Both the position numbers and the translations under genes were made by a program. A stretch of 64,000 nt of DNA from a virus, in the IMG/VR virus record IMGVR_UViG_3300032315_001604, positions 62,001 through 126,000 of that record; one strand, given 5' to 3'. Shown piece by piece: positions 3,683-62,137 of this stretch (its first letter is position 1; each line of letters starts with the position of its first letter). The notes beneath the pieces were generated by a model, which saw nothing but the letters and a program-made list of their open reading frames with translations, searched no databases and was not told where the DNA came from.

Positions 3683-6037
3683 ATGGCAGATATCCCATAC
3701 GATGAGATATTATCAAAATTTGCTGGAAATCAGATAGATTCAAAAGAATTTTTAAATCTTTTATTCTCTACTGATGAAACGGGTATTGATTATCTACAAT
3801 CTTTAAAAAAAGAATTTAAAGACAAATACGTTACACCTGTTTTTAAAAAGGCATCGTCGTATTATTCCAAAATTGGGGAACAAATAGATAAAGGTTCAAA
3901 AAAAGAAAATTTAGATGCATTAAACGACCCGTTAGATATTGTTAAGTTAAATCAAGAATATAAAGAAAAAACTAAACAACTTTTTGAAAAAAAATTAAAA
4001 GAGATTGATGTATCTGTTAACATAGAAAATCCACAGCAAACTAGAAGTGTTATAGAAAAAATAAAAGATTTAACTTCAGTTAATGTTCCAGAAACTCAAC
4101 CACAAAATATTCAAGAGCAACAAACCTTTGGTGTAAAACCAACGGTTATTACTTTATCAGAAAAAACCATAGAAGATTTAACTAAAGTTTTAAATCTTAA
4201 TTTTAAAGGAATAAAAGAAGGAATAGGGTTAAAAACAGAAACAAAAGAAGAAGAGGCGGGTGGTGGTTTGTTAAGTACGTTAGCTGGATTATTGGCATTT
4301 GGTGGCGTTGCTGCCTTATTGGTATCGGCTTTTTGGGATAAAATTAAACCATGGTTGGAAGAAAAAATTGGTGTAAAATTAGGATTTTTAGACAAATTTG
4401 AAGGTTTAGTTGAAGGTATAGGTAAATTTTTTACTCTCGGTGGTTTAAAAATAACCGCTGGTCCTTTATTTAATTTGGTAGGAAAAGCATTTACAACATT
4501 TGGAGATTTATTAGAAGGCGGTTTAAAAGCTATTTTTCAATTAGGATTTGGTGATGAGATAGTAGAAGCAGGAACAAAAGCAGCACCTGCTGCTTGGAAA
4601 ACTCTTTTACCGAAAATTGCAGGGGGTTTATTTAAAGGTGCTGGAAAAGTTGCTTTAAGAGGCATTCCTATTATCGGAAGTTTGATTAGTTTTTACTTTG
4701 CATATGACCGTTTCCAAAAAGGAGAAGTTATACAAGGTTTAATAGAAATTGCAGGAGGATTAGCAGGTTTAATACCTGGTGTAGGAATACCTTTAAGCAT
4801 CGGTATAGCGGCTTTAAATGCCTTTATAGACTATAAAGTAGCAGATCTGCCACAAGATCAACAAAACGCCGCAGCAGGGGGAATTATAGGCGATATAGGG
4901 GCAAAAATATACGATATGATCAAAGATATACCTTTTGTTGGAGGTCTTGTCAAATTTGGTTTGGGTATATATGAGTTAGTTTCTGGTAATTTTTCTAAAG
5001 GATTGGACTATTTGGTAGAACAGCCGTATTTAGGTCCGTTTCCAGCACTTATTAAATCTTTAATGGGTGCAACAGTTGAACAAGCAGACGGCACTAAAAC
5101 CTTTTCTTTTGAAGGATTTCAGAAAGAATTAAAAACGAACATGTTTAAGTGGATCATAAGCATGGTTCCTAATGCTTGGGGTATGAGAGGCGGTATTGCC
5201 AAAATAATGGGATTGGAATATAATGATACAACAGGAGATATAACAGTAAGCGAAGATCCATTTAATTTAGAATCAATAAACAGTCAAGAAAAAAATAAAA
5301 ATGATAAAATAAGAAAAGATGTATTAGAAAAATATGGTACTTCTCAAGATATAGCAAATTCTTCAGAAAATTTACAAAAAATAAAAAATGAATTGGATGC
5401 TCTTAGAAAAGAACAACCTGCACTTAAAAAACAATATGATGATTTAGCAGCATGGTCATTAGAAGGATGGAATCCGTTTGCTGATGAACAAAAAGAAGTT
5501 GAAGCAAAAGCAAAATTAGAAGAAGTTGAAAGAAGAATGGCAATTTTAGGAAATCAATATTTAGATGCATCGCAAAAACAAAAAGATATGTCACAATATG
5601 CAAATGATGCAGGAGAACTTGATCCATCAAAAGTTACAACAGTTTTAAAAGATAAAATAAAGTTTTCTACAGCACCTAAAGATGATTTTGAATATAATGC
5701 AAACTATTCTAATTCGGTTTTATTTGATAATAAAACACAAACAGCAAATATTTTAAATCCTAATGACAATATTTTGGCATATAAAACGGATGGTGTTTTT
5801 GATAAAAGTTTAAAACAAATGACAGCACTAATGGATTCTATTAATAAAGGAATTTACAAAATGTCTTCAGTTTTAGAAACAAACGAAAGCATGAAAGGAC
5901 CATCAATTAATATTGCTGCATCACAAGATAATGGTGGAAACTATAAAGATGTAATATTAAGTGGTAGTAGAGATTCAATTTACGAATTAAGAAATAATTG
6001 GTGGAGAAGTACAACAAGTATCCGCGATTTTGCTTAA
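3683..6037 (+). CDS. Tail tape measure protein (gp29-like)
   Basis: At 784 residues this is the longest protein of the + strand tail cluster and has tape-measure character. There is a charged helical N-terminus (1-190), a glycine/alanine-rich hydrophobic core with several membrane-like stretches (about 194-420, including GGGLLSTLAGLLAFGG), and a coiled-coil-prone charged C-terminal third (about 545-660). In T4 the equivalent gp29 (590 residues) sits in the hub, sets tail length and precedes gp48, and here gp48 also follows directly. If the usual relation of about 1.5 angstrom per residue holds, the tail would be somewhat longer than that of T4; this is inference. Confidence 0.65.
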   Translation: MADIPYDEILSKFAGNQIDSKEFLNLLFSTDETGIDYLQSLKKEFKDKYVTPVFKKASSYYSKIGEQIDKGSKKENLDALNDPLDIVKLNQEYKEKTKQLFEKKLKEIDVSVNIENPQQTRSVIEKIKDLTSVNVPETQPQNIQEQQTFGVKPTVITLSEKTIEDLTKVLNLNFKGIKEGIGLKTETKEEEAGGGLLSTLAGLLAFGGVAALLVSAFWDKIKPWLEEKIGVKLGFLDKFEGLVEGIGKFFTLGGLKITAGPLFNLVGKAFTTFGDLLEGGLKAIFQLGFGDEIVEAGTKAAPAAWKTLLPKIAGGLFKGAGKVALRGIPIIGSLISFYFAYDRFQKGEVIQGLIEIAGGLAGLIPGVGIPLSIGIAALNAFIDYKVADLPQDQQNAAAGGIIGDIGAKIYDMIKDIPFVGGLVKFGLGIYELVSGNFSKGLDYLVEQPYLGPFPALIKSLMGATVEQADGTKTFSFEGFQKELKTNMFKWIISMVPNAWGMRGGIAKIMGLEYNDTTGDITVSEDPFNLESINSQEKNKNDKIRKDVLEKYGTSQDIANSSENLQKIKNELDALRKEQPALKKQYDDLAAWSLEGWNPFADEQKEVEAKAKLEEVERRMAILGNQYLDASQKQKDMSQYANDAGELDPSKVTTVLKDKIKFSTAPKDDFEYNANYSNSVLFDNKTQTANILNPNDNILAYKTDGVFDKSLKQMTALMDSINKGIYKMSSVLETNESMKGPSINIAASQDNGGNYKDVILSGSRDSIYELRNNWWRSTTSIRDFA

Positions 6038-14350: not shown

Positions 14351-15778
14351 ATGAACAAATATTACGGAAATTATCTTGGTATAGTTGTAGGTTCTGGTGA
14401 TGATCCTGAGAACAGAAATCGTGTACAAGTATGGATTCCTCATATTACAAATACTTTATATGATGGTTGGAACAATAAACCAAGTGTAGGAACTATTGAT
14501 TTTTTTAATTTTAAAGAAGGAATTAATATACCTGATCCTGATTTAATTACAAGAATTAGAAACGTATTACCTTGGGCTGAATGCGCCTCTCCGTTATTTG
14601 GTGGAGGTTCTCCAGTAACTCAAAATTTTTCAACTGGTCAATCTTCAATTGATGCTGGAAATGCTTTGCAATATGATGATGAAGTTTTATCTGAAGAAGA
14701 TACTTTGGTGCCAGGAAGTGATGTGGATGATATTTTAGAAGTTAGTCCAGAAGCAACACCATTTCAAGAAAATTTACCACCAATTCCAGATACTCCAGAA
14801 AACAATGCACCAAATAGTGGAAACGATTTACCTCCAGTAGAACCTCCCATGCCTACAGTAGAAGGATCTGGACAAACGGAAGTGGTTTTACTTGATGGTA
14901 CAACTGTTGTGGACGCAAATACAGGAGACTACATTCGTTCTTTAACAACTCCAAATGATGAAGATATAACCTTTCCTACTCCTGCAACAAGAACGGATCC
15001 ATCAATTCAAGATACAGGTCAAACACCAACAAAAATACCAAGTATTAAAGCACCTGTAGTAAATCTTAACAATCTTTATAAAACTGCTACAAGTACGGCG
15101 AGAGGAAAATGTATCGATGATGGTAGTACAGGATTATGTTTAAAAGGCGTAAGTGTTTGGAGCTATGCTTTAACAAAAGATGAATATTTTCTTACTGCTA
15201 CTGGAACAAATGCTAATGCGATTAATACAGGCAGAAGTGCCTATTTTCAAGATTCTAATCTTTATGATAAAAGAATTGATCTTCCTAATAACTATATACC
15301 TGTAGTGGGTGATATAGTATCAGATAAAAATCACATCATTACATATTTGGGTAATGATAAAAACGGTAAACAAGTATGGTATAGTGATTTTAAAGATAGA
15401 TCTCCTTCATATTATGTAGAAACTGGTAGATGGAACAATCCACAACTAATAAGATTAAATGATGACGGACTAAAATTAGTAGATAAAAATCCTGACTTGG
15501 CATTAAGTGAAGGGTATGTTGATGCCGTTAATCAGTATCGAGATGAATCGTCATCACAAGACCAAAGCCGTCCAGTTGAACCAGATGATTTTGCAGGTTC
15601 TACATTAGCTGCTGCTGGAAATGGTGGTTATGACGGAACATCAACAGGTACATATTCTGTACCAGATGTGGGTTCAAAGGTTTGGGTATTTTTTCATGGT
15701 GGAGATATACAAAAACCAATTTATTTTGCACAAGCACTTGATCCATCATCATTTGATCAAACAACACAAGGAACATAA
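14351..15778 (+). CDS. 5: Baseplate hub gp5-type OB-fold protein with inserted CHAP-like peptidase domain
   Basis: A 475-residue protein. Residues 1-85 are the gp5 OB-fold start (YYGNYLGIVVGSGDDPENRNRV, then LPWAECASPLFGGG). Residues 435-465 (SVPDVGSKVWVFFHGGD, PIYFAQALDP) are the OB-fold end as in gp5 and VgrG proteins. Between them lie an acidic Pro-rich linker (about 110-235) and a domain at about 240-370 that resembles CHAP/NlpC peptidases: RGKC (C254) after a basic residue, a helix, VVGDIV, then NHIITYLG (H328) and VWYSDFKDR (D346). T4 gp5 instead carries a lysozyme domain after the OB-fold. The enzyme would cut peptidoglycan during DNA delivery. OB-fold assignment is firm; the CHAP call is moderate. 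Confidence 0.75.
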   Translation: MNKYYGNYLGIVVGSGDDPENRNRVQVWIPHITNTLYDGWNNKPSVGTIDFFNFKEGINIPDPDLITRIRNVLPWAECASPLFGGGSPVTQNFSTGQSSIDAGNALQYDDEVLSEEDTLVPGSDVDDILEVSPEATPFQENLPPIPDTPENNAPNSGNDLPPVEPPMPTVEGSGQTEVVLLDGTTVVDANTGDYIRSLTTPNDEDITFPTPATRTDPSIQDTGQTPTKIPSIKAPVVNLNNLYKTATSTARGKCIDDGSTGLCLKGVSVWSYALTKDEYFLTATGTNANAINTGRSAYFQDSNLYDKRIDLPNNYIPVVGDIVSDKNHIITYLGNDKNGKQVWYSDFKDRSPSYYVETGRWNNPQLIRLNDDGLKLVDKNPDLALSEGYVDAVNQYRDESSSQDQSRPVEPDDFAGSTLAAAGNGGYDGTSTGTYSVPDVGSKVWVFFHGGDIQKPIYFAQALDPSSFDQTTQGT

Positions 15779-15781
15779 CAT

Positions 15782-17863
15782 ATGGGCGTAAGCGTAACAG
15801 AAAAAAACGGAAAAAAACAACGTAAAAGAAGAAGAGCAATAAAAACAAGAGCAGGTGGCTTAACTTTTGATGAAAACGTATCAACAGATGATGGTTCAGA
15901 AGTTCCATCCAGAAACGATTCTGTAAGATTAGATCATTCATCTGGAAGCTCGGTTACATTAGCATCTGGGGGTGTTGGTATAGCTTCTGTAGGAGATGTT
16001 TCGTTTAATGCTGCTGGTAATGCTCATATTACAGCAAAAGGTACTATACAAACCACAGCAGAAGGTAGCATTAGAAATTATGCACAAGGAGATATAGTTG
16101 ATGTAAGAGGTAAACAAAATGATACACAACTTGAAGCTGCAAAAAAAATGCAAGAAGGTGTCAACAGTATAGAAAAAGCAAAAGCTAATAAAATTAAAAG
16201 TACTAAAGGAGACGAAGTATTATGTCCAACATGTTCTAAAGAATATCTCACAAATAGGAAAAGTGGATTTGGATCAAGAGCATTTAAAACTATCAGAAAA
16301 TATACACCGCCTTATTTTGGATTTGCCATAGATATTCTTCAATGGCTTTATAATAATTTGGTTGCTCCGATGTTAGATATAGTATCAGGACAATCTCTTT
16401 TGGGAGGAACATGTGGAAATAAAGGATGTAAGAATGGAAAAATAGAATCTCCGAAAAAAAAATTAGAAGCAGGTAACGAAGAAGCTGTTAGAGTCGCAGA
16501 AGGCATTTCTGAAGAAATGAATGAAAATGCTTCTAAATTGAAAGGTGGAAATGTTGTTGATGTTTCTTCAGGGGATAGAACAATAAGAGCAGGATTAGTC
16601 ATGAATGATGCACCTGCTTATGTTGATACCGATACATATCACAATGAAGAATTCCGACATGAAAAAGATACAATTACTGGTGCATATTTTGCAGCAAGCG
16701 GTAAAGGTAATGCTAAAAGAGTAGTTCGAACCGTTCCGCATCATACTGTTGGTAATTTAAATTTAGAAGCTACCAACAGATTATTATTAGTAGCTGGTAG
16801 TCCAGGCTTCGGTATAGAAACCAAAGGACATGGCGATTTACAATTTGGAAGTTTTACTATTAGTGCAGGAGAAGCAGAAGCCGTCATAGCATCAAAAAAT
16901 AAAACTGTTATTAAAGGTAAAAATGTAATAATAGATGCCGAAGATAGAAGTGGTACTGAAGGTATTAAACTTCAATCCCCTCATACAAGAGTGGCAGGTG
17001 CTTTACACGTAGATGGAAATATGTCTATGATTGGAAGTCTATCAATAGATGGTAATTTGTCTGCACCTTTTTTGAAGGTTCCTTCGATGAGACTTCAAAC
17101 TGCGAAGTCAGGATCTACTAAAAGTGTTGCAAATGATGCAGAATGGCTTGGCTCTGCTCAATCTATTACTGCTGCTGATAAAGCTTTGCAAGTGATTGTA
17201 CGAGACATTATGCCAGGTCAACAACTAGATTTAGATTGGATTTTTACTCAAGCATTTGAAATTTTTAACTTAGCAAGAATTAGTTTATTAATAGAACCCG
17301 TTCCTACAGGTTTTGCGTTTTTCTTTGGATGTCCTCCGACATGTCCTCCTATGATTTTACCAATTTGGAATTGGAAACATACTCACACAAAATGCCCAGG
17401 ATCGCATACTCATGATCATACCGTTCCTAAAGGAAATTATTACGATGATCGTGAAGCATGGGGGAATGCAAGAGATGATGCCAGTTCTGTGCCTACTCCT
17501 GCTAATGATAAGGGTGATGGTTTAACCCCAGGACCAAAATCCAACGGTGGAGCGTGTGGAGGGGGTGGATTTGGTTTTGGTTCACCTAATAGCAATGCTT
17601 CAAAAAATAGATTATTAAGAAATCAAAGTTTTGGAATTAATAGCGGAGATGCTTATGGTGATTATGATTTTGTTAATATAATGCCATTGAGTGGAAATTT
17701 TGGTTATGATGAAGATGGCAACATTACACCTATAGATAAAGTTAACTTTAGTGTTAACTTGGAAGGTTGTGCGTTGTTTGATTTTAATAACAGTACAGAT
17801 TTGACTAATTCTACAAATCCAACTCCAAATGACCCATCAAAAGATGGATTGAATGACTGCTAA
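15782..17863 (+). CDS. Central spike needle protein (gp5 C-terminal-like beta-helix) with His-rich metal motif
   Basis: A 693-residue protein 4 bases after the OB-fold gene. Residues about 20-108 read like the start of a VgrG/gp5 needle: TRAGGLTFDEN, RNDSVRLDHSSGSSVTLASGG, then short repeats with G-D/N-x-x (SVGDVSFNAAGN, TAEGSIRNYAQGD). A second beta-repeat region lies at about 255-430. Inserted are two Cys pairs, CPTC (148-151) and CGNKGC (211-216), resembling a DnaJ-type zinc knuckle. Residues 533-546 contain HTHTKCPGSHTHDH, a candidate metal site like the HxH iron sites of phage spike tips. Gly-rich tail after 585. Together with the previous gene this is a split gp5. Confidence 0.7.
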   Translation: MGVSVTEKNGKKQRKRRRAIKTRAGGLTFDENVSTDDGSEVPSRNDSVRLDHSSGSSVTLASGGVGIASVGDVSFNAAGNAHITAKGTIQTTAEGSIRNYAQGDIVDVRGKQNDTQLEAAKKMQEGVNSIEKAKANKIKSTKGDEVLCPTCSKEYLTNRKSGFGSRAFKTIRKYTPPYFGFAIDILQWLYNNLVAPMLDIVSGQSLLGGTCGNKGCKNGKIESPKKKLEAGNEEAVRVAEGISEEMNENASKLKGGNVVDVSSGDRTIRAGLVMNDAPAYVDTDTYHNEEFRHEKDTITGAYFAASGKGNAKRVVRTVPHHTVGNLNLEATNRLLLVAGSPGFGIETKGHGDLQFGSFTISAGEAEAVIASKNKTVIKGKNVIIDAEDRSGTEGIKLQSPHTRVAGALHVDGNMSMIGSLSIDGNLSAPFLKVPSMRLQTAKSGSTKSVANDAEWLGSAQSITAADKALQVIVRDIMPGQQLDLDWIFTQAFEIFNLARISLLIEPVPTGFAFFFGCPPTCPPMILPIWNWKHTHTKCPGSHTHDHTVPKGNYYDDREAWGNARDDASSVPTPANDKGDGLTPGPKSNGGACGGGGFGFGSPNSNASKNRLLRNQSFGINSGDAYGDYDFVNIMPLSGNFGYDEDGNITPIDKVNFSVNLEGCALFDFNNSTDLTNSTNPTPNDPSKDGLNDC

Positions 17864-50493: not shown

Positions 50494-51003
50494 TTACCAA
50501 CCTTGCGGTAAGGTAATTGAAATTGTAGGATCTAAATCATTAGAATCTCTTGTGACAATATATTGCCATTTGGTTTCATTGATATCAGATGCTTGTGAAC
50601 TGACCCAATTTGTAATAGAAGGCACAAACACAGGTTCTGTTAATCTTTTATCAGTAAATAAATCAATACCGCAAAATAATGTTCCAGTTAAAGATAATGT
50701 TATAACAGTAGATCCTGTGGTTCTATCACCCCACGGCGTAATATCTGCACCTGTATTTTCTTTATCATAAACTACATAACCAGCCGACAAATAAACTACA
50801 TAATCGTCGTCTGATCTCCAAGTATTAATTCTTGGTCTATCATTCTCGTTGATAATTGGCGAATATGCAGTAACAATTACATTGTTGGTGTTCCAAGAAA
50901 GATTAAAATTTACTTCATTAGGAAAAATTAATTTATCTCCCAAATAAATTTTACCAACCCCTTTATCTCCTACATATGCAGTTAAAATTTTATTTAAAAT
51001 CAT
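50494..51003 (-). CDS. Tail fibre-associated structural protein (predicted)
   Basis: A 169-residue, Cys-poor, beta-rich protein. MILNKILTAYVGDKGVGKIYLGDKLIFP is a beta opening of the sort seen in phage fibre accessory and baseplate proteins, and the rest alternates short strands with Asp/Asn/Thr loops (ITPWGDRTTGSTVITLSLTGTL). It overlaps the end of the large fibre gene by 4 bases (ATGA), so it is probably translated with it and acts as a fibre tip, adaptor or chaperone. Family not recognised. Confidence 0.5.
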   Translation of the reverse strand: MILNKILTAYVGDKGVGKIYLGDKLIFPNEVNFNLSWNTNNVIVTAYSPIINENDRPRINTWRSDDDYVVYLSAGYVVYDKENTGADITPWGDRTTGSTVITLSLTGTLFCGIDLFTDKRLTEPVFVPSITNWVSSQASDINETKWQYIVTRDSNDLDPTISITLPQGW

Positions 51004-53999
51004 ACAATAATATATATTGTTGACGGATCTTTAACTGCTAAACCTGTGTATGTAGCTTCTGAAAGATATACCATATTAACAACAGCACTTGCAGAAGGAG
51101 ATACTGTTGATGGTTTACTAGCTACAACATCATAAATTCTATTACTTGCAGAAATATTTCCATTAACCGTTAATGCTTGAGCAGGAGTTGTTGTGCCAAT
51201 GCCTACGTTTCCTGTGTGATCAATACGCATTCTTTCTACCGATCCTAAACTAGAACCTGTAATTTGAGTTCTAAATGTTATATAAGAACCTTGTGCCGTG
51301 CTTGTATACTTTTCAGCAGCCCACATTTGTATTGCTACTGGAGAATTTTGTGTTGGGTTTATTCCACCATCAAGCATACCCCATGCTCTTATACTCATGA
51401 GAGCATCTCCAGCACTAACTCCAATAGCAGCAGTAGACGCTCCTCTTGATCTTAATGCTTTAATATTGGGAGATCTTTGAACATCCCCTGCATTTCCAGT
51501 ATATCTGCTCATAACCAACATGGTCTTTGCAGGATTAGGCGAATTATCATCAAGAGTTAATCCTAGTGTAAAAGTATCTACAGCAGCATCACCAAGAGCT
51601 ATACTGCTTATAGCAGCACCAAGGGAAGTATTACCCAATACCGTTAAACCATTTGCATTAAAATCTGTTCCAACACCAAGTCTACCTGCAACAAACATAC
51701 CACCAGAAGCAGATACCATGTATTGGCCTGTTCTAGTCGTGGAGACGTTTTGTGTTAATGTGCCTAAATTACCATCAGACCAAGCATAGGTGTAATTTTG
51801 TGCTGCTGTTGCTCTAAATCCTGCTGAGTGTGACGCAATACCTTTAGCTTCAGAAAATCTTCCTTCTGCATGACTATATATTGCAGTAGCTCTTGTTGAA
51901 GCTCCTTCTGCATGTGAAGAGTTACTATTAGCATGTGTATTAACACCCTCACTGTGAGAATATGCACCAGATGCTATAGTCAAATCACCTTCTGCATGAC
52001 TATAAGTTCCAGAAGCTGTTGTACTACCTCCTTCTGCATGACTATAATTTCCAGAAGCTGTTGTACTATAGCCTTCTGCATGACTTGCTTCTCCAGAAGC
52101 TGATGTATTATCACCTTCTGCATGACTTGCGATACTAGAAGCAAATGAATTTCTTCCTTCTGCATGACTTGCTAGGTCAGAAGCTGTTGTACCTTCTCCT
52201 TCGGCATGACTTCCATCACCAGATGCTGTTGTATAACCACCTTCGGCATGACTTGAATATCCAGAAGCTGTTGTACCTTCTCCTTCAGAGTGACTTGCTG
52301 TTCCAGAAGCCACTGTACCAGAACCTTCGGCATGTGAATAATTTCCAAGTACTACAGAATTGATTCCTTCAACATGGTTGAATAAACCATAAGATGCAGT
52401 ACCTGAACCTTCAATAACACTGCCTACTACAAACAAATCAGCATTTGCAGTCAAATTTCCTGTTAAAGTTCCACCACTTAATGGTAAAAAGTTATTTCTT
52501 AAAAAGGTATCAGTAATCCATTCATTAGAATTTGCACTATTAGTATAAAGTATTCCATTTGAACTTATGTTTCCAAAAACTGTTAATTTATTACTTGATA
52601 AACCAACATTATAGCCATCAACACCAATGCCCATGTTTCCTGGAATAAAAACTCCACCAGAAGCAGATATCATATATTGGCCTGTTCTAGTCGTGGAGAC
52701 GTTTTGTGTTAATGTACCCAAATTACCATCTGACCAAGCATATGTATAATTTTGTGCTGCTGTTGCTCTAACTCCTGCTGCATGACTGTAAGATCCGTTA
52801 GCAACAGTTTCTCTACCTTCAGCATGACTTCCAAGTTTAGAAGCTATTGTACTATAACCTTCGGCATGACTTCCAAAGTTTCCAGAAGCTGTTGTATTAA
52901 AACCTTCTGCATGACTTCCAATGTTTCCAGAAGCTATTGTAGCATACCCTTCTGCATGACTATAATTTCCAGAAGCTGTTGTACTATAGCCTTCTGCATG
53001 ACAGAAAGTTCCAGAAGCTGTTGTTTCACCACCTTCAGCATGACTTCCACTTCCAAAAGCTGTTGTAAGATACCCCTCTGCGTGTGCCCCCGCAGCAGAA
53101 TTTGATTCAAAAATAATAAATCCGTTTGATGTATCACTAGAAAATACATCAGATCTTGCTGATATAGCTCCATTAATTGAATTTCTAGAAGCTACAGTAA
53201 ATTCTTGATAAAAATTTAAAAAGGTATTTTTGGCTCTTAATACAGTTCCAGCTGCAAGAGTACTAAACTTAGAACTTAACAAATTAGAAAAAGTAAAAAG
53301 CCTTGTTGAAGCTGTGTATGTTAAAAAATCAATCCTTTGTCCAGTTGCTGTATCATAGCCTTCTGCATGACTATATAACCCTGTAGCAGTTGTGTAGAGT
53401 CCTTCTGCATGACTGTGGAATCCAGATGCAAATGTGGCAGAACCTTCTGCATGACTACCTAAGTTTCCTGCTGCTCTTGTATTTACGCCTTCTGCATGAC
53501 TATAAGTTCCAGAAGCTGTTGTATTATTGCCTTCTGCATGACTTTCATTTCCAGAAGCTGTTGTATTAGATCCTTCTGCATGACTATTAGTTCCTAACGC
53601 TTTTGTACCAGAACCTTCTTCTACTCTTCCAGTAAATTTAACATTTACTGCACTTAAATTAAAATTGACTTTTAAATTGCCTGTTAGAGTTCCACCACTT
53701 AAAGGCAAATAGTTATTCAAAATAGCATTATTTAAATCCGCGAGGTTAGCAATTCTTTGCGTATATGCTGTTACAGGATAAGATAAAGAACTTAATGTAT
53801 AATATTTTGATTGTTCACTGACATGAATTAACATGCCTACTTTCTGTCTATCTAATGGTACGGCTGTTGAAAGATCGACTAAAGTTGAAACAGACATCAA
53901 TCCACCTTTTCCATAGATGTCTTCATGTGTTGGAAATGTTGCATCCGTATCGCCTGGACTGATTTTAGCTGCTAAAATTGTACCTTGTATTTCTGCCAT
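51000..53999 (-). CDS. Large tail fibre/adhesin with YadA-like SHAEG repeats
   Basis: A 999-residue protein. The N-terminus (1-95) contains FPTHEDIYGKGGLMSVSTLVDL and GMLIHVSEQSKYYTL, a common attachment region of phage fibres. The middle has about 30 copies of a 14-residue repeat of the form SHAEGxxTTASGxx, in two blocks (about residues 130-430 and 540-760), each closed by AAQNYTYAWSDGNLGTLT and a VSASGGxF cap. These are left-handed beta-roll head repeats as in trimeric adhesins. The C-terminus ends in LAVKDPSTIYIIV, a typical fibre ending. It would bind the host surface as a trimer. Confidence 0.8.
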   Translation of the reverse strand: MAEIQGTILAAKISPGDTDATFPTHEDIYGKGGLMSVSTLVDLSTAVPLDRQKVGMLIHVSEQSKYYTLSSLSYPVTAYTQRIANLADLNNAILNNYLPLSGGTLTGNLKVNFNLSAVNVKFTGRVEEGSGTKALGTNSHAEGSNTTASGNESHAEGNNTTASGTYSHAEGVNTRAAGNLGSHAEGSATFASGFHSHAEGLYTTATGLYSHAEGYDTATGQRIDFLTYTASTRLFTFSNLLSSKFSTLAAGTVLRAKNTFLNFYQEFTVASRNSINGAISARSDVFSSDTSNGFIIFESNSAAGAHAEGYLTTAFGSGSHAEGGETTASGTFCHAEGYSTTASGNYSHAEGYATIASGNIGSHAEGFNTTASGNFGSHAEGYSTIASKLGSHAEGRETVANGSYSHAAGVRATAAQNYTYAWSDGNLGTLTQNVSTTRTGQYMISASGGVFIPGNMGIGVDGYNVGLSSNKLTVFGNISSNGILYTNSANSNEWITDTFLRNNFLPLSGGTLTGNLTANADLFVVGSVIEGSGTASYGLFNHVEGINSVVLGNYSHAEGSGTVASGTASHSEGEGTTASGYSSHAEGGYTTASGDGSHAEGEGTTASDLASHAEGRNSFASSIASHAEGDNTSASGEASHAEGYSTTASGNYSHAEGGSTTASGTYSHAEGDLTIASGAYSHSEGVNTHANSNSSHAEGASTRATAIYSHAEGRFSEAKGIASHSAGFRATAAQNYTYAWSDGNLGTLTQNVSTTRTGQYMVSASGGMFVAGRLGVGTDFNANGLTVLGNTSLGAAISSIALGDAAVDTFTLGLTLDDNSPNPAKTMLVMSRYTGNAGDVQRSPNIKALRSRGASTAAIGVSAGDALMSIRAWGMLDGGINPTQNSPVAIQMWAAEKYTSTAQGSYITFRTQITGSSLGSVERMRIDHTGNVGIGTTTPAQALTVNGNISASNRIYDVVASKPSTVSPSASAVVNMVYLSEATYTGLAVKDPSTIYIIV
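51685..52785. repeat. Duplicated cap module in the fibre gene
   Basis: The stretch encoding the AAQNYTYAWSDG cap occurs at about 51687-51830 and again at about 52652-52785 with near-identical bases, including 33 unchanged bases around the Thr-Arg-Thr-Gly codons. A 40-base part of the first copy is also identical to 55919-55958 in the neighbouring fibre gene. Confidence 0.8.
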
Positions 54000-54004
54000 A
54001 ATGT

Positions 54005-54012
54005 TATTTATT
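54005..54012 (-). promoter_or_regulatory. Late-promoter-like box AATAAATA before the 999-residue fibre gene
   Basis: AATAAATA on the minus strand, 5 bases before the ATG at 53999. It is inside the 11-base gap to the upstream fibre gene and overlaps its stop codon. Confidence 0.4.
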
Positions 54013-57000
54013 AAATTATTTCAACAGTATAAGTTCCTGTTAAAAGATTGTTTGTTCTGTATACATAATAATTATCGTTTCCACCGTAGATATTAGCAAA
54101 TGGTGTAATCGATAATTGTGTCATGTCATTAAAATTAAATCCATTGATTCTAATTAATGCCGTTGTTCCAAATCTAATTGGGTATGCAACATAAATATAT
54201 TCGTTTGTTGCATATACTGTTTTAGCTCCTAATGATAGGCGAGATGTTGCTAAAACACTATCATCCGCATTTGAATATATAGTTATATTATTTGCACTAA
54301 GTTGATTTGTTGCACCAAAATATACTCTATATCTCCAATTTGCATTAATAGTTCTTGTATGTTCAGCATTAGACCAATCGGTTACTTTTACGCTCCACGA
54401 ACTTGTTTGTTGTGTAGCAGTTCCTCCGATACTACTAATACTATATGTATTTGTGTCATTGTAAGAAGAGAATGTAAAAGTATTTGTACCTACTGTTGTT
54501 AATCCAGTAGGTAAAGTTAATGTGTATTTTGATACTGCTTGTGGTTCAACTTTTGTGCTATTCCAAACAAGAGAAGGTGAAACTAAAGATTGACCTATTT
54601 CTAATGTTAGAGAGCTAGAACCATTTAATAATAAATATGAAAAATTTGGCGCAACATATAAAAATGCATTTAATGCTTGTTTAATACCTGTTAAACTTGG
54701 TCTTTCTAAACTACCAAAATCAAGTTCTCTGGAATAAACAATTTGTTGCGAACTTACATTTCCTGTAACATTTAATTGTCCAGAAACACTTAAATTACCA
54801 GTTAAAGATCCACCTGATAATGCTAAGAAATTATTTTTAACATAATTTTGAGTAGCATACGTTGCACTATTACTGTTTACGTTACTATAAACGCTGTTCC
54901 ATTGATTGGAATTACCATTATTAGCATAAACAAGACCTGATCCACTAATAACACCAGCAACCGTCAATGCATTTTCTTGTGAATCAGTTCCAATACCAAC
55001 CTGCCCTCTTGGAATGTAAACACCAGATGGCGCATATATAAAATACTGTCTAGATTTTGTTGATGATATATTATTTGTTAATGTATTGTCTCCAGACCAT
55101 GCATAACTATAATCATATGCTGCTGTTGCTTTATAACCAGCAGCATGAGAAACTAATCCTTTAGATTCTGCATATCTTCCTTCTGCATGACTATATAACC
55201 CAGAAGCTATTGTAGACGCACCTTCCGCATGACTATAAGTGCCAGAAGCTATTGTAACCGCACCTTCTGCATGACTCGATTCTCCAGAAGCTGTTGTACT
55301 ATCACCTTCTGAATGACTAAAATTACCAGAAGCCGTAGTTTCATATCCCTCTGCATGACTCGATTCTCCAGAAGCTTTGGTGTTTTCCCCTTCAGTATGA
55401 CTTGAATCACCAGAAGCTGTTGTTGAATTTCCTTCAGCATGACTAAACGATCCTAATGCTTTTCCTGATCCTTCTTCGACTCTGCCAGTAAACTTAACAT
55501 TTACCGCACTTAAATTATTTGTAACATTTAAATTACCTGATATTTGACCACCAGAAAGTGGTAAAAATTTATTATTTGTGAAAAGAATAGTGGCATATCT
55601 TGCACTATTACTGATTACATTACTATAAACATTGTTCCAATTTGCAGAAGTACTGTTAACAACGGAAGTTACTGACAATTCTGTTGCACTATTAGCAAAA
55701 ACCCAATTAGAACCTTTGTACGAATTTAAAATATCAGCACTATTGGAGTTTACAAAACTTCTAGCAGATTGATCTAAAGAACTATTGGCATTTGTGTAGC
55801 TGTAAACAGAATTCCATTGATTAGAATTACCATTATTAGCATAAACAATACTTGTTCCGCTGATAATACCAACAACACTTAAAGCATTTGCTTGAGAATC
55901 TGTTCCAACACCAAGCTGTCCTGCAACAAACATACCACCAGAAGCAGATACCATGTATTGACCCGTTCTAGTTGTTGAAACGTTTTTTGTAAGAGTTCCT
56001 AAGTTACCATCTGACCAAGCATATGTATAATTTTGAGCAGCAGTTGATCTAAAACCTGCTGCATGACTTGCATCTCCAGAAGCTACTGTTTGATATCCTT
56101 CTGCATGACTTGAACTTCCAGAAGCTCTTGTCACCTGTCCTTCTGCATGACTTGCACTTCCAGAAGCTACTGTTTGAAAACCTTCTGCATGACTTTGATT
56201 GGTAGAAGCTACTGTTTGAAAACCTTCTGCATGACTATTTTGCCCAGAAGCGGTGGTTGCGGCTCCTTCTGCATGACTTGCATCTCCAGAAGCTAATGTT
56301 ACGTTTCCTTCAGCATGACTATAGAATCCAGAAGCTTCCGTACTATTACCTTCCGCATGACTAAACGATCCTAATGCTTTTCCTGATCCTTCTTCGACTC
56401 TGCCAGTAAACTTAACATTTACAGCACTTAAATTATTATTAACATTTAAATTTCCTGTAATTTGACCACCACTTAAAGGTAAAAATTTGTTATTGCTAAA
56501 AAGGATAGTGGCATATGTTGCACTATTACTGTTTACATTACTATAAACAGAATTCCAACTGGCTGATGTACTATTGACTACACTTGTAACTGAAAGTTCT
56601 GTAGCACTATTAGCAAAAACCCAATTAGAACCTTTATAACCGTTGATAATAGAAGCACTATTAGAATTTACAAATGATGTTGCAGCCAATTCCGTAGAAC
56701 TATTAGCATTTACAAAAGCGGTAGCAGCTAATTCTGTTGCACTGTTTGCAAAAACCCAACTAGATCCTTTATAACCATTAATAATAGTAGAACTATTAGC
56801 ATTTACAAATGATCTAGAAGCCTGATCAAAAGAACTATTAGTATTTGTATAAGAATAAACACTATTCCAATTTAAACTATTGGTTTTAGCACCAGTAATA
56901 TTACCAGTAATAGTTAAATCCCCATTTATATTGACGTTATTTGTATAAAGAGTGTTTGTTTGTGTTCCGATGATGTTGTTACCAACAATAAAAGAGTTAT

Positions 57001-57178
57001 TTGCGCTTAAAATGTTGTTTTGACCACCTAAAATTGCCGAATTGTTACTTGGTACAAAGTTATTACTTCCACCTAGCACAGAACTATTATTTCCTGATAC
57101 CGCATTGGAGGTAGAACCGATTCTAACTTGACCTTTATTTGAATCGATATAAAGAGATTTGCTATTAATAAATTCCAT
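54011..57178 (-). CDS. Large tail fibre/adhesin, paralogue with SHAEG repeats and distinct C-terminus
   Basis: A 1055-residue protein. The N-terminus has short YadA-like repeats (NNSSVLGGSNNFVPSN, NNSAILGGQNN) and a stalk of NSNSAT/FVNANS units (about 95-220). Two SHAEG-repeat blocks of eight units each follow (about 270-380 and 575-690), each preceded by KFTGRVEEGSGKALGSFSHAEG and closed by a YAWS cap. The last 220 residues form a separate domain (LNAFLYVAPNFSYLLLNGSSSLTLEIG onward), likely the receptor-binding tip. It has a different N-terminus from the 999-residue neighbour, so the two may join in series along one fibre. Confidence 0.8.
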   Translation of the reverse strand: MEFINSKSLYIDSNKGQVRIGSTSNAVSGNNSSVLGGSNNFVPSNNSAILGGQNNILSANNSFIVGNNIIGTQTNTLYTNNVNINGDLTITGNITGAKTNSLNWNSVYSYTNTNSSFDQASRSFVNANSSTIINGYKGSSWVFANSATELAATAFVNANSSTELAATSFVNSNSASIINGYKGSNWVFANSATELSVTSVVNSTSASWNSVYSNVNSNSATYATILFSNNKFLPLSGGQITGNLNVNNNLSAVNVKFTGRVEEGSGKALGSFSHAEGNSTEASGFYSHAEGNVTLASGDASHAEGAATTASGQNSHAEGFQTVASTNQSHAEGFQTVASGSASHAEGQVTRASGSSSHAEGYQTVASGDASHAAGFRSTAAQNYTYAWSDGNLGTLTKNVSTTRTGQYMVSASGGMFVAGQLGVGTDSQANALSVVGIISGTSIVYANNGNSNQWNSVYSYTNANSSLDQSARSFVNSNSADILNSYKGSNWVFANSATELSVTSVVNSTSANWNNVYSNVISNSARYATILFTNNKFLPLSGGQISGNLNVTNNLSAVNVKFTGRVEEGSGKALGSFSHAEGNSTTASGDSSHTEGENTKASGESSHAEGYETTASGNFSHSEGDSTTASGESSHAEGAVTIASGTYSHAEGASTIASGLYSHAEGRYAESKGLVSHAAGYKATAAYDYSYAWSGDNTLTNNISSTKSRQYFIYAPSGVYIPRGQVGIGTDSQENALTVAGVISGSGLVYANNGNSNQWNSVYSNVNSNSATYATQNYVKNNFLALSGGSLTGNLSVSGQLNVTGNVSSQQIVYSRELDFGSLERPSLTGIKQALNAFLYVAPNFSYLLLNGSSSLTLEIGQSLVSPSLVWNSTKVEPQAVSKYTLTLPTGLTTVGTNTFTFSSYNDTNTYSISSIGGTATQQTSSWSVKVTDWSNAEHTRTINANWRYRVYFGATNQLSANNITIYSNADDSVLATSRLSLGAKTVYATNEYIYVAYPIRFGTTALIRINGFNFNDMTQLSITPFANIYGGNDNYYVYRTNNLLTGTYTVEII
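55437..56422. repeat. Long exact direct repeats framing a 918-base module in the 1055-residue fibre gene
   Basis: About 68 bases at 55437-55504 recur unchanged at 56355-56422, exactly 918 bases (306 codons) apart. Recombination between them would delete or duplicate one adhesin block in frame. Confidence 0.85.
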
Positions 57179-61747: not shown

Positions 61748-62137
61748 ATGATACCTAGACCTCCTCAAGAAGATAAAATCGGTGGAAAAGTTCAATTAGA
61801 TAGTTATATTGGACATGAAATGAATTTGGATGAATGGACTTTGACAAAAGTATTAGATGACATTTTAATGTGTCAGTATATCGATGTCAGTGAAGACGGA
61901 CAAGAAGTAAAGCGCGGTTCAATATGGGTTCCTGTAAACACTGTAAACTTTACATGGCGTTTAGCAAAAGTTCTTTTATCTGGTCCTGACTGTAAAACAG
62001 TTGAAAGCGGTGATATTGTCATGTTCCCTAATGATAAGGGAATTCAAGTAGCCAATATGAATGGTTTAAAAAATGTTGTGTTTTTAAACGAGTCCAGAAT
62101 TTTTGGTGTATGTGAACCAAAAAAATCTGAAACATAA
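61748..62137 (+). CDS. GroES-like co-chaperonin (gp31-like)
   Basis: A 129-residue protein with the GroES fold order: DDILMCQYIDVSEDG (first strand), KRGSIWVPVNTVNFTWRLAKVLLSGPD (mobile loop region and strand), VESGDIVMFPNDKGIQV (G-D-x-V-x-F-P, typical of GroES), and VVFLNESRIFGVCE (final strands). T4 gp31 replaces GroES in the host chaperonin to fold the major capsid protein gp23. Here it could play the same role with the host GroEL. The protein is slightly longer than GroES. Confidence 0.65.
   Translation: MIPRPPQEDKIGGKVQLDSYIGHEMNLDEWTLTKVLDDILMCQYIDVSEDGQEVKRGSIWVPVNTVNFTWRLAKVLLSGPDCKTVESGDIVMFPNDKGIQVANMNGLKNVVFLNESRIFGVCEPKKSET

Follow-up and report, generated by a model that had tools for sequence, protein, structure and literature searches.

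The window analysed here is a stretch of 64,000 nucleotides, positions 62,001 to 126,000 of IMG/VR virus record IMGVR_UViG_3300032315_001604. The full record is 195,163 bp long and comes from a large, uncultured T4-like virus that infects bacteria. It encodes a set of T4-like replication proteins (a family B polymerase, an SbcC-like subunit, UvsX, and a DnaB-like helicase) and also carries a T4-like terminase and a tail tube. Two adjacent genes in the window, which lie in the same frame and are separated by 3 nt (15779-15781), encode a predicted baseplate hub of 475 aa and a needle (spike) of 693 aa. The features of this locus are as follows.

14351-15778, plus strand: gp5-type baseplate hub gene, 475 aa, predicted OB-fold with an inserted papain-like peptidase
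14351-14620, plus strand: OB-fold N-half, residues 1-90, strands β1-β3, ending with PWAECASPLFGGG (N-half HMM 9e-41; homologous to the N-halves of the relatives)
14621-15100, plus strand: acidic, proline-rich N-side linker, residues 91-250 (composition; low pLDDT)
15092-15493, plus strand: predicted Tae3/CHAP-like papain-fold peptidase domain (modelled over residues 248-381, with its core at about 258-381)
15137-15139, plus strand: C263, predicted nucleophile at the N terminus of the first helix (invariant in 14/14 sequences; model)
15332-15334, plus strand: H328, predicted general base, placed where the central strand begins (invariant in 14/14 sequences; model)
15383-15385, plus strand: S345, probable third catalytic residue, in a W-x-S-D motif (conserved in 13/14 sequences; Cys-His-Ser triad of Tae3)
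15494-15640, plus strand: acidic C-side linker, residues 382-430 (composition)
15641-15775, plus strand: OB-fold C-half, residues 431-475, strands β4-β5, GSKVWVFFHGGDIQKPIYFA (Pfam Phage_base_V)
15782-17863, plus strand: needle/spike gene, equivalent of gp5C, 693 aa, with a His-rich HxH C-terminal region (homology to fused needles)

Sequence comparisons identify the 475-aa protein as a predicted gp5-type (Phage_base_V) OB-fold hub that differs from the standard form in lacking both the short β3-β4 loop and a needle on the same chain. In the window hub, the Pfam Phage_base_V model matches only residues 429 to 458 (profile positions 41 to 70), with an E value of 1.2e-8, a match that passes the curated cut-off. 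In the hubs of its relatives, the N-terminal ~90 residues correspond to positions 2 to 32 of this profile and the C-terminal ~35 residues to positions 36 to 75, with the insert between them; in L014, L016, and L017, both hub halves around the insert match phrog_430 (T4 gp5). The cultured Alishewanella phage Slicko01 encodes an uninterrupted OB hub of 171 aa with a loop of about 6 residues, and the C-half of the window hub is 63% identical to it over 30 aa. Since the halves of the relatives flank the insert and Slicko01 has the uninterrupted version, the insertion point can be placed in the β3-β4 loop, which in the window hub holds 343 inserted residues. Of these, the N-side linker (residues 91-250) contains 27 D+E, 5 K+R, and 20 P. 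The AlphaFold2 model of the full-length hub (12 rows) is poor (pLDDT 39), so the interrupted OB-fold as a whole rests on sequence and not on the model.

The inserted domain of the window hub, taken alone, has no match in Pfam (CHAP, PF05257, and NlpC/P60, PF00877, at their cut-offs included), NCBIfam, or PDB. Its first relative, detected in L024 by blastp (1e-10), has a sole Cys that aligns with C263. A wider scan retrieved 13 homologues, all from other phages and all located in this OB loop. Members of this set share about 16 to 28% identity, and the best Pfam matches of the homologues are weak and stay below the cut-off (NLPC_P60, 0.0017; CHAP, 0.016 and 0.037). A two-sequence profile of the domain gave chance matches only in PDB and in 398 genomes; the matter was settled with 13 members, whose profile, run against 177,635 PDB sequences, matched a single family, Tae3 (4HZ9/4HZB, E=5.5e-5). 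In hhalign, the domain scores 94% to the L102/L104 pair, which consists of the CHAP domain of Acj9 gp27 and a Tae3 homologue.

AlphaFold2 modelling of residues 248-381 yielded a structure with a pLDDT of 80.9 and a pTM of 0.80. The rows of its VIA-align comparison are nearly all papain-like (C39, CHAP lysin 8TW1, Tae3, NlpC/P60, and Gsp amidase); the leading rows have Z scores of 7.2 to 7.4, all below 8, and Tae3 shows 22% identity to the domain. A Foldseek search with the same model found no significant match (best E, 0.15). Because the VIA Z scores are below 8, the papain fold is assigned from profile, motif, and model jointly; the three agree and point to a papain-like amidase/peptidase of the Tae3/CHAP type with a predicted enzymatic activity. 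The initial annotation, made from the letters of the DNA alone, had described an OB-fold hub interrupted in one loop, an acidic linker, and a papain-like (CHAP/NlpC-type) peptidase inserted there. All three are recovered here, the first by the Phage_base_V halves that bracket the insert in this hub and its relatives, the second by residue composition, and the third by profile, motif, and model. Structure prediction, which it had put forward as a check, bore out the papain-like domain but failed for the hub at full length.

In the domain alignment, C263, G320, H328, and W343 are invariant in all 14 sequences, S345 is kept in 13 and D321 in 11, and the D346 column is variable. The first helix of the domain model starts at model residue 15, next to C263 (model residue 16), and H328 (model residue 81) stands where the central strand (82-88) begins. 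Alignment and model thus mark C263 as the predicted nucleophile and H328 as its partner. The GD motif of the NlpC/CHAP/amidase cluster is present as G320-D321. A Cys-His-Ser triad has been reported for Tae3, and the GD motif is characteristic of the cluster (PMC10318531); S345 and G320-D321 fit this triad and this motif, and the third catalytic residue is probably S345 rather than D346. The catalytic set originally proposed was C254, H328, and D346, of which only H328 survives: C263 takes the place of C254, and S345 most likely that of D346. C254 was rejected as the nucleophile: no homologue has it, and in the model it belongs to the disordered lead-in, whereas C263 is conserved throughout.

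The same alignment bears on whether the domain might have retained its fold and lost its activity, or might serve for wall binding only. The variability of the D346 column, taken as the third catalytic position, would be in keeping with such a loss, but an invariant Cys, His, GD glycine, and Trp, together with a Ser kept in 13 of 14 sequences at only about 16 to 28% identity, form the pattern of a live site, and an inactive domain is unlikely.

The relatives considered here are IMG/VR hubs, about 60 of which have loop enzymes. The relatives yielded 61 distinct loop inserts of more than 110 aa, which excludes a chance reading of the insert. The spacing of the OB halves in 104 distinct hubs is bimodal, with nearly all values at either ~77 to 94 residues, where the loops have no recognisable domain, or ~140 to 525 residues, where they usually do. 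The inserts fall into at least nine unrelated classes, namely, Tae3-like, M15, Amidase_5, SLT, GH24 lysozyme, tail lysozyme, 3D/DPBB-like, GH75, and SleB-like. A Pfam scan of 58 inserts found the established wall hydrolases Phage_lysozyme (5 members, best 3e-15), Phage_lysozyme2 (2e-9), VanY (2e-6), GH75 (8e-6), Amidase_5 (5e-5), M15_3 (3e-4), and SLT (6e-4), as well as CHAP and HH_signal, the latter of which we take to represent an M15-like metallopeptidase fold. Iterative clustering gave groups of M15 (15 inserts), Tae3-like (14), SLT (11), L004-type (8), 3D/DPBB-like (6), and GH24 (5), followed by the rarer SleB-like (3), second DPBB-like (3), and GH75 (2) groups and some smaller ones; the names SleB-like and 3D/DPBB-like were given by motif, without a Pfam match, and the L004-type, L147b, and 3D/DPBB-like inserts carry no firm enzyme assignment. 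Two domains could be assigned in 22 inserts, and each of these inserts pairs exactly one peptide-cutting class (Tae3-like, M15, or Amidase_5) with one other, in either order. Random pairing would produce this outcome with a probability of 2e-6, a value that ignores shared ancestry and unassigned classes.

A tree built from the OB halves has few columns and is weakly resolved; on it, the presence of an insert changes twice. Insert content changes 33 times among the 56 insert-bearing hubs, close to what is seen with shuffled labels (37.8; 33-41). The exchange is seen best in L140 and L145. Their DNA is 84% identical over the 5.4 kb that end at hub residue ~127 and 93% identical after the domain; between these flanks they have no similarity, with a GH75-like domain in L140 and a SleB-like one in L145. 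L113 and L179 differ in the presence and absence, respectively, of an M15 domain, and their DNA is otherwise 91 to 95% identical. From these sequences, the hub loop is a predicted cassette site, in which hydrolases with unrelated folds replace one another, with OB-fold core and needle unchanged. The initial annotation had proposed that the T4 lysozyme was swapped for a peptidase by insertion into the loop. Loop insertion holds, but not a one-off replacement, as the site holds many classes in the relatives, including a T4-type GH24 lysozyme. The odds are about even for a broader proposal, according to which the loop of this uncultured T4-like lineage serves as a dedicated exchange site, where recombination between the OB halves swaps one or two hydrolases, usually a peptide cutter and a glycan cutter, and the tail-tip chemistry follows the host wall and helps to set the host range.

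Three further loci deserve mention. The hub of L179 keeps an 83-aa loop without the M15 domain and appears to be the empty allele of the near-identical L113. L152 (4989-7443) encodes two adjacent hub paralogues, one with a Tae3-like insert and the other with an SLT insert, which possibly form a mixed hub. In L002 (4995-6130), the hub consists of two overlapping ORFs with one OB-fold half each and a break in the N-side linker; this could be a frameshift or an assembly error.

The range of enzymes found in the loop also weighs on the possibility that the papain-like domain is a virion-maturation protease for the hub, the needle, or another tail protein. T4 gp5 requires a maturation cleavage (PMC3004832), and the needle is a separate chain here, but hub and needle are already two genes, the same slot in the relatives holds GH24, SLT, GH75, M15, and Phage_lysozyme2 domains, which act on walls and not on proteins, and Tae3, the closest relative with a solved structure, is a peptidoglycan amidase. 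A maturation role is unlikely.

The 693-aa needle is homologous to the C-terminal ~600 to 670 aa of the fused hub-needle proteins of the relatives (E=2e-100 over 666 aa for L014; 2e-83 for L008), and a needle encoded separately just downstream of the hub, as first annotated, is confirmed by this homology and by its own ORF. Many relatives have split hub and needle genes, and others have them fused. In the split relatives, the two genes stand in relative frames 0, 1, and 2, the gap between them varies, and all three stop codons occur. Programmed readthrough from hub to needle was rejected on this variation in gap and frame, with the second ATG of the split members in any of the three frames. 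An accidental or misassembled fusion, with the needle split off by a nonsense mutation or joined by readthrough, would suit the in-frame arrangement of the window genes, which have a single stop codon and 3 nt between them, but is highly improbable in view of the same hub on a second, separate IMG/VR contig (L001), the dozens of relatives with inserts in the same loop, and the frames and stop codons of the split relatives. Cleavage of T4 gp5 during maturation leaves the hub-enzyme (gp5*) and the needle (gp5C) as separate chains in the virion, and the gene split yields these same two chains (PMC3004832). The needle also contains a Cys-rich segment (CPTC...CGNKGC), which separates the N-terminal repeats from the middle part; its Cys pairs recur in the relatives and may bind metal.

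Taken together, the data favour, with a probability of about 0.82, a gp5*-type hub with a loop-tethered Tae3/CHAP-type amidase and a separate needle, in which the loop is a cassette site. The 475-aa protein would be the hub adaptor at the tip of the contractile tail, with its OB-fold assembled from residues ~1-90 and ~431-475 and the amidase hanging from the β3-β4 loop on long, flexible acidic tethers. The 693-aa protein would form a trimeric needle seated on the OB trimer, as the counterpart of gp5C. Upon contraction, the needle would pierce the outer layer and the OB-fold cap would be carried into the cell wall, where the three tethered peptidases might cut peptide stems or cross-links of the peptidoglycan, using C263, H328, and probably S345. 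Wall cutting beside the tube would open a hole for its passage. The domain architecture, homology, fold, conserved residues, and cassette exchange in this scheme were computed; the trimer geometry, timing, enzymatic activity, and bond specificity are those that we infer.

The enzymes of phage tail tips are, in most descriptions, end fusions to gp5, VgrG, or the tape measure protein. T4 gp5 resembles the system described here in combining an OB-fold adaptor, a wall hydrolase, and a trimeric needle that end up as separate chains in the final virion (PMC3004832). However, its lysozyme follows the OB-fold, with linkers to the needle, and everything is encoded by one gene, whereas in the window the enzyme is papain-like and lies inside the OB loop, and the needle has its own gene. 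The type VI secretion amidase Tae3 (4HZ9/4HZB), CHAP, and NlpC/P60 domains have in common with the window domain the papain-like fold and the C-GD-H-(W-x-S-D) order. Tae3 is secreted as a free effector and is paired with an immunity protein, in contrast to the tethered virion domain of the window, which is about 20% identical to it. Acinetobacter phage Acj9 and its relatives also carry a CHAP/Tae3-like amidase on a T4-like baseplate hub protein, gp27, but there it is fused at the C-terminal end and not inserted in the gp5 OB-fold. In Acj9 gp27 (L102, 228-1814) and its counterparts in several Acinetobacter T4-like phages, this C-terminal domain (CHAP, E=5e-6) is covered only by the annotation as a baseplate hub.

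The trimeric hub gp15 of Anabaena phage A-1(L) has glycan- and peptide-cutting domains that are active in vitro and both lyse host cells; these domains reside in a gp27-type barrel protein, and the OB-fold spike gp25 has none (PMC10966104). Phage P1 gp5 and the Slicko01 hub, with an OB-fold and a needle but no enzyme, represent the empty form without an insertion, and in P1 the hydrolase is part of the tape measure protein. The window domain was absent from the cultured phages searched, and no enzyme insertion in the OB loop was found in 50,697 cultured-phage records; searches with the other insert-bearing hubs likewise found the whole architecture in none of the cultured phages. Searching the literature outside subscription journals for tail enzymes, OB-folds, and hubs yielded no description of an enzyme inserted into the OB loop of gp5. 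The single components are already known; new with respect to the literature and phage records searched are the OB-loop site, the variety of its enzymes, and their clean cassette exchange.

A loop of a β-barrel in the load-bearing tip would be a socket that accepts many families of enzymes and leaves the barrel undisturbed. The natural allele pairs that differ only at the cassette offer a testable case of changing the wall-breaching chemistry, and the loop inserts could serve as a natural collection of hydrolase parts carried on the virion. An OB domain split by hundreds of residues would also explain why such hubs have been overlooked by annotation pipelines.

Two other loci of the window were also noted. 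A 784-aa protein encoded 5' of the tail genes (3683-6037, plus strand) shows weak similarity to endolysins (phrog_790, 4e-7) and peptidases (phrog_23178, 5e-5) and could be another wall hydrolase encoded by this phage. On the minus strand (51000-57178), two adjacent genes encode proteins of ~1000 aa, both of which match phrog_25468 (function not assigned) and have several repeated stretches; this pair is probably a duplicated repeat protein.
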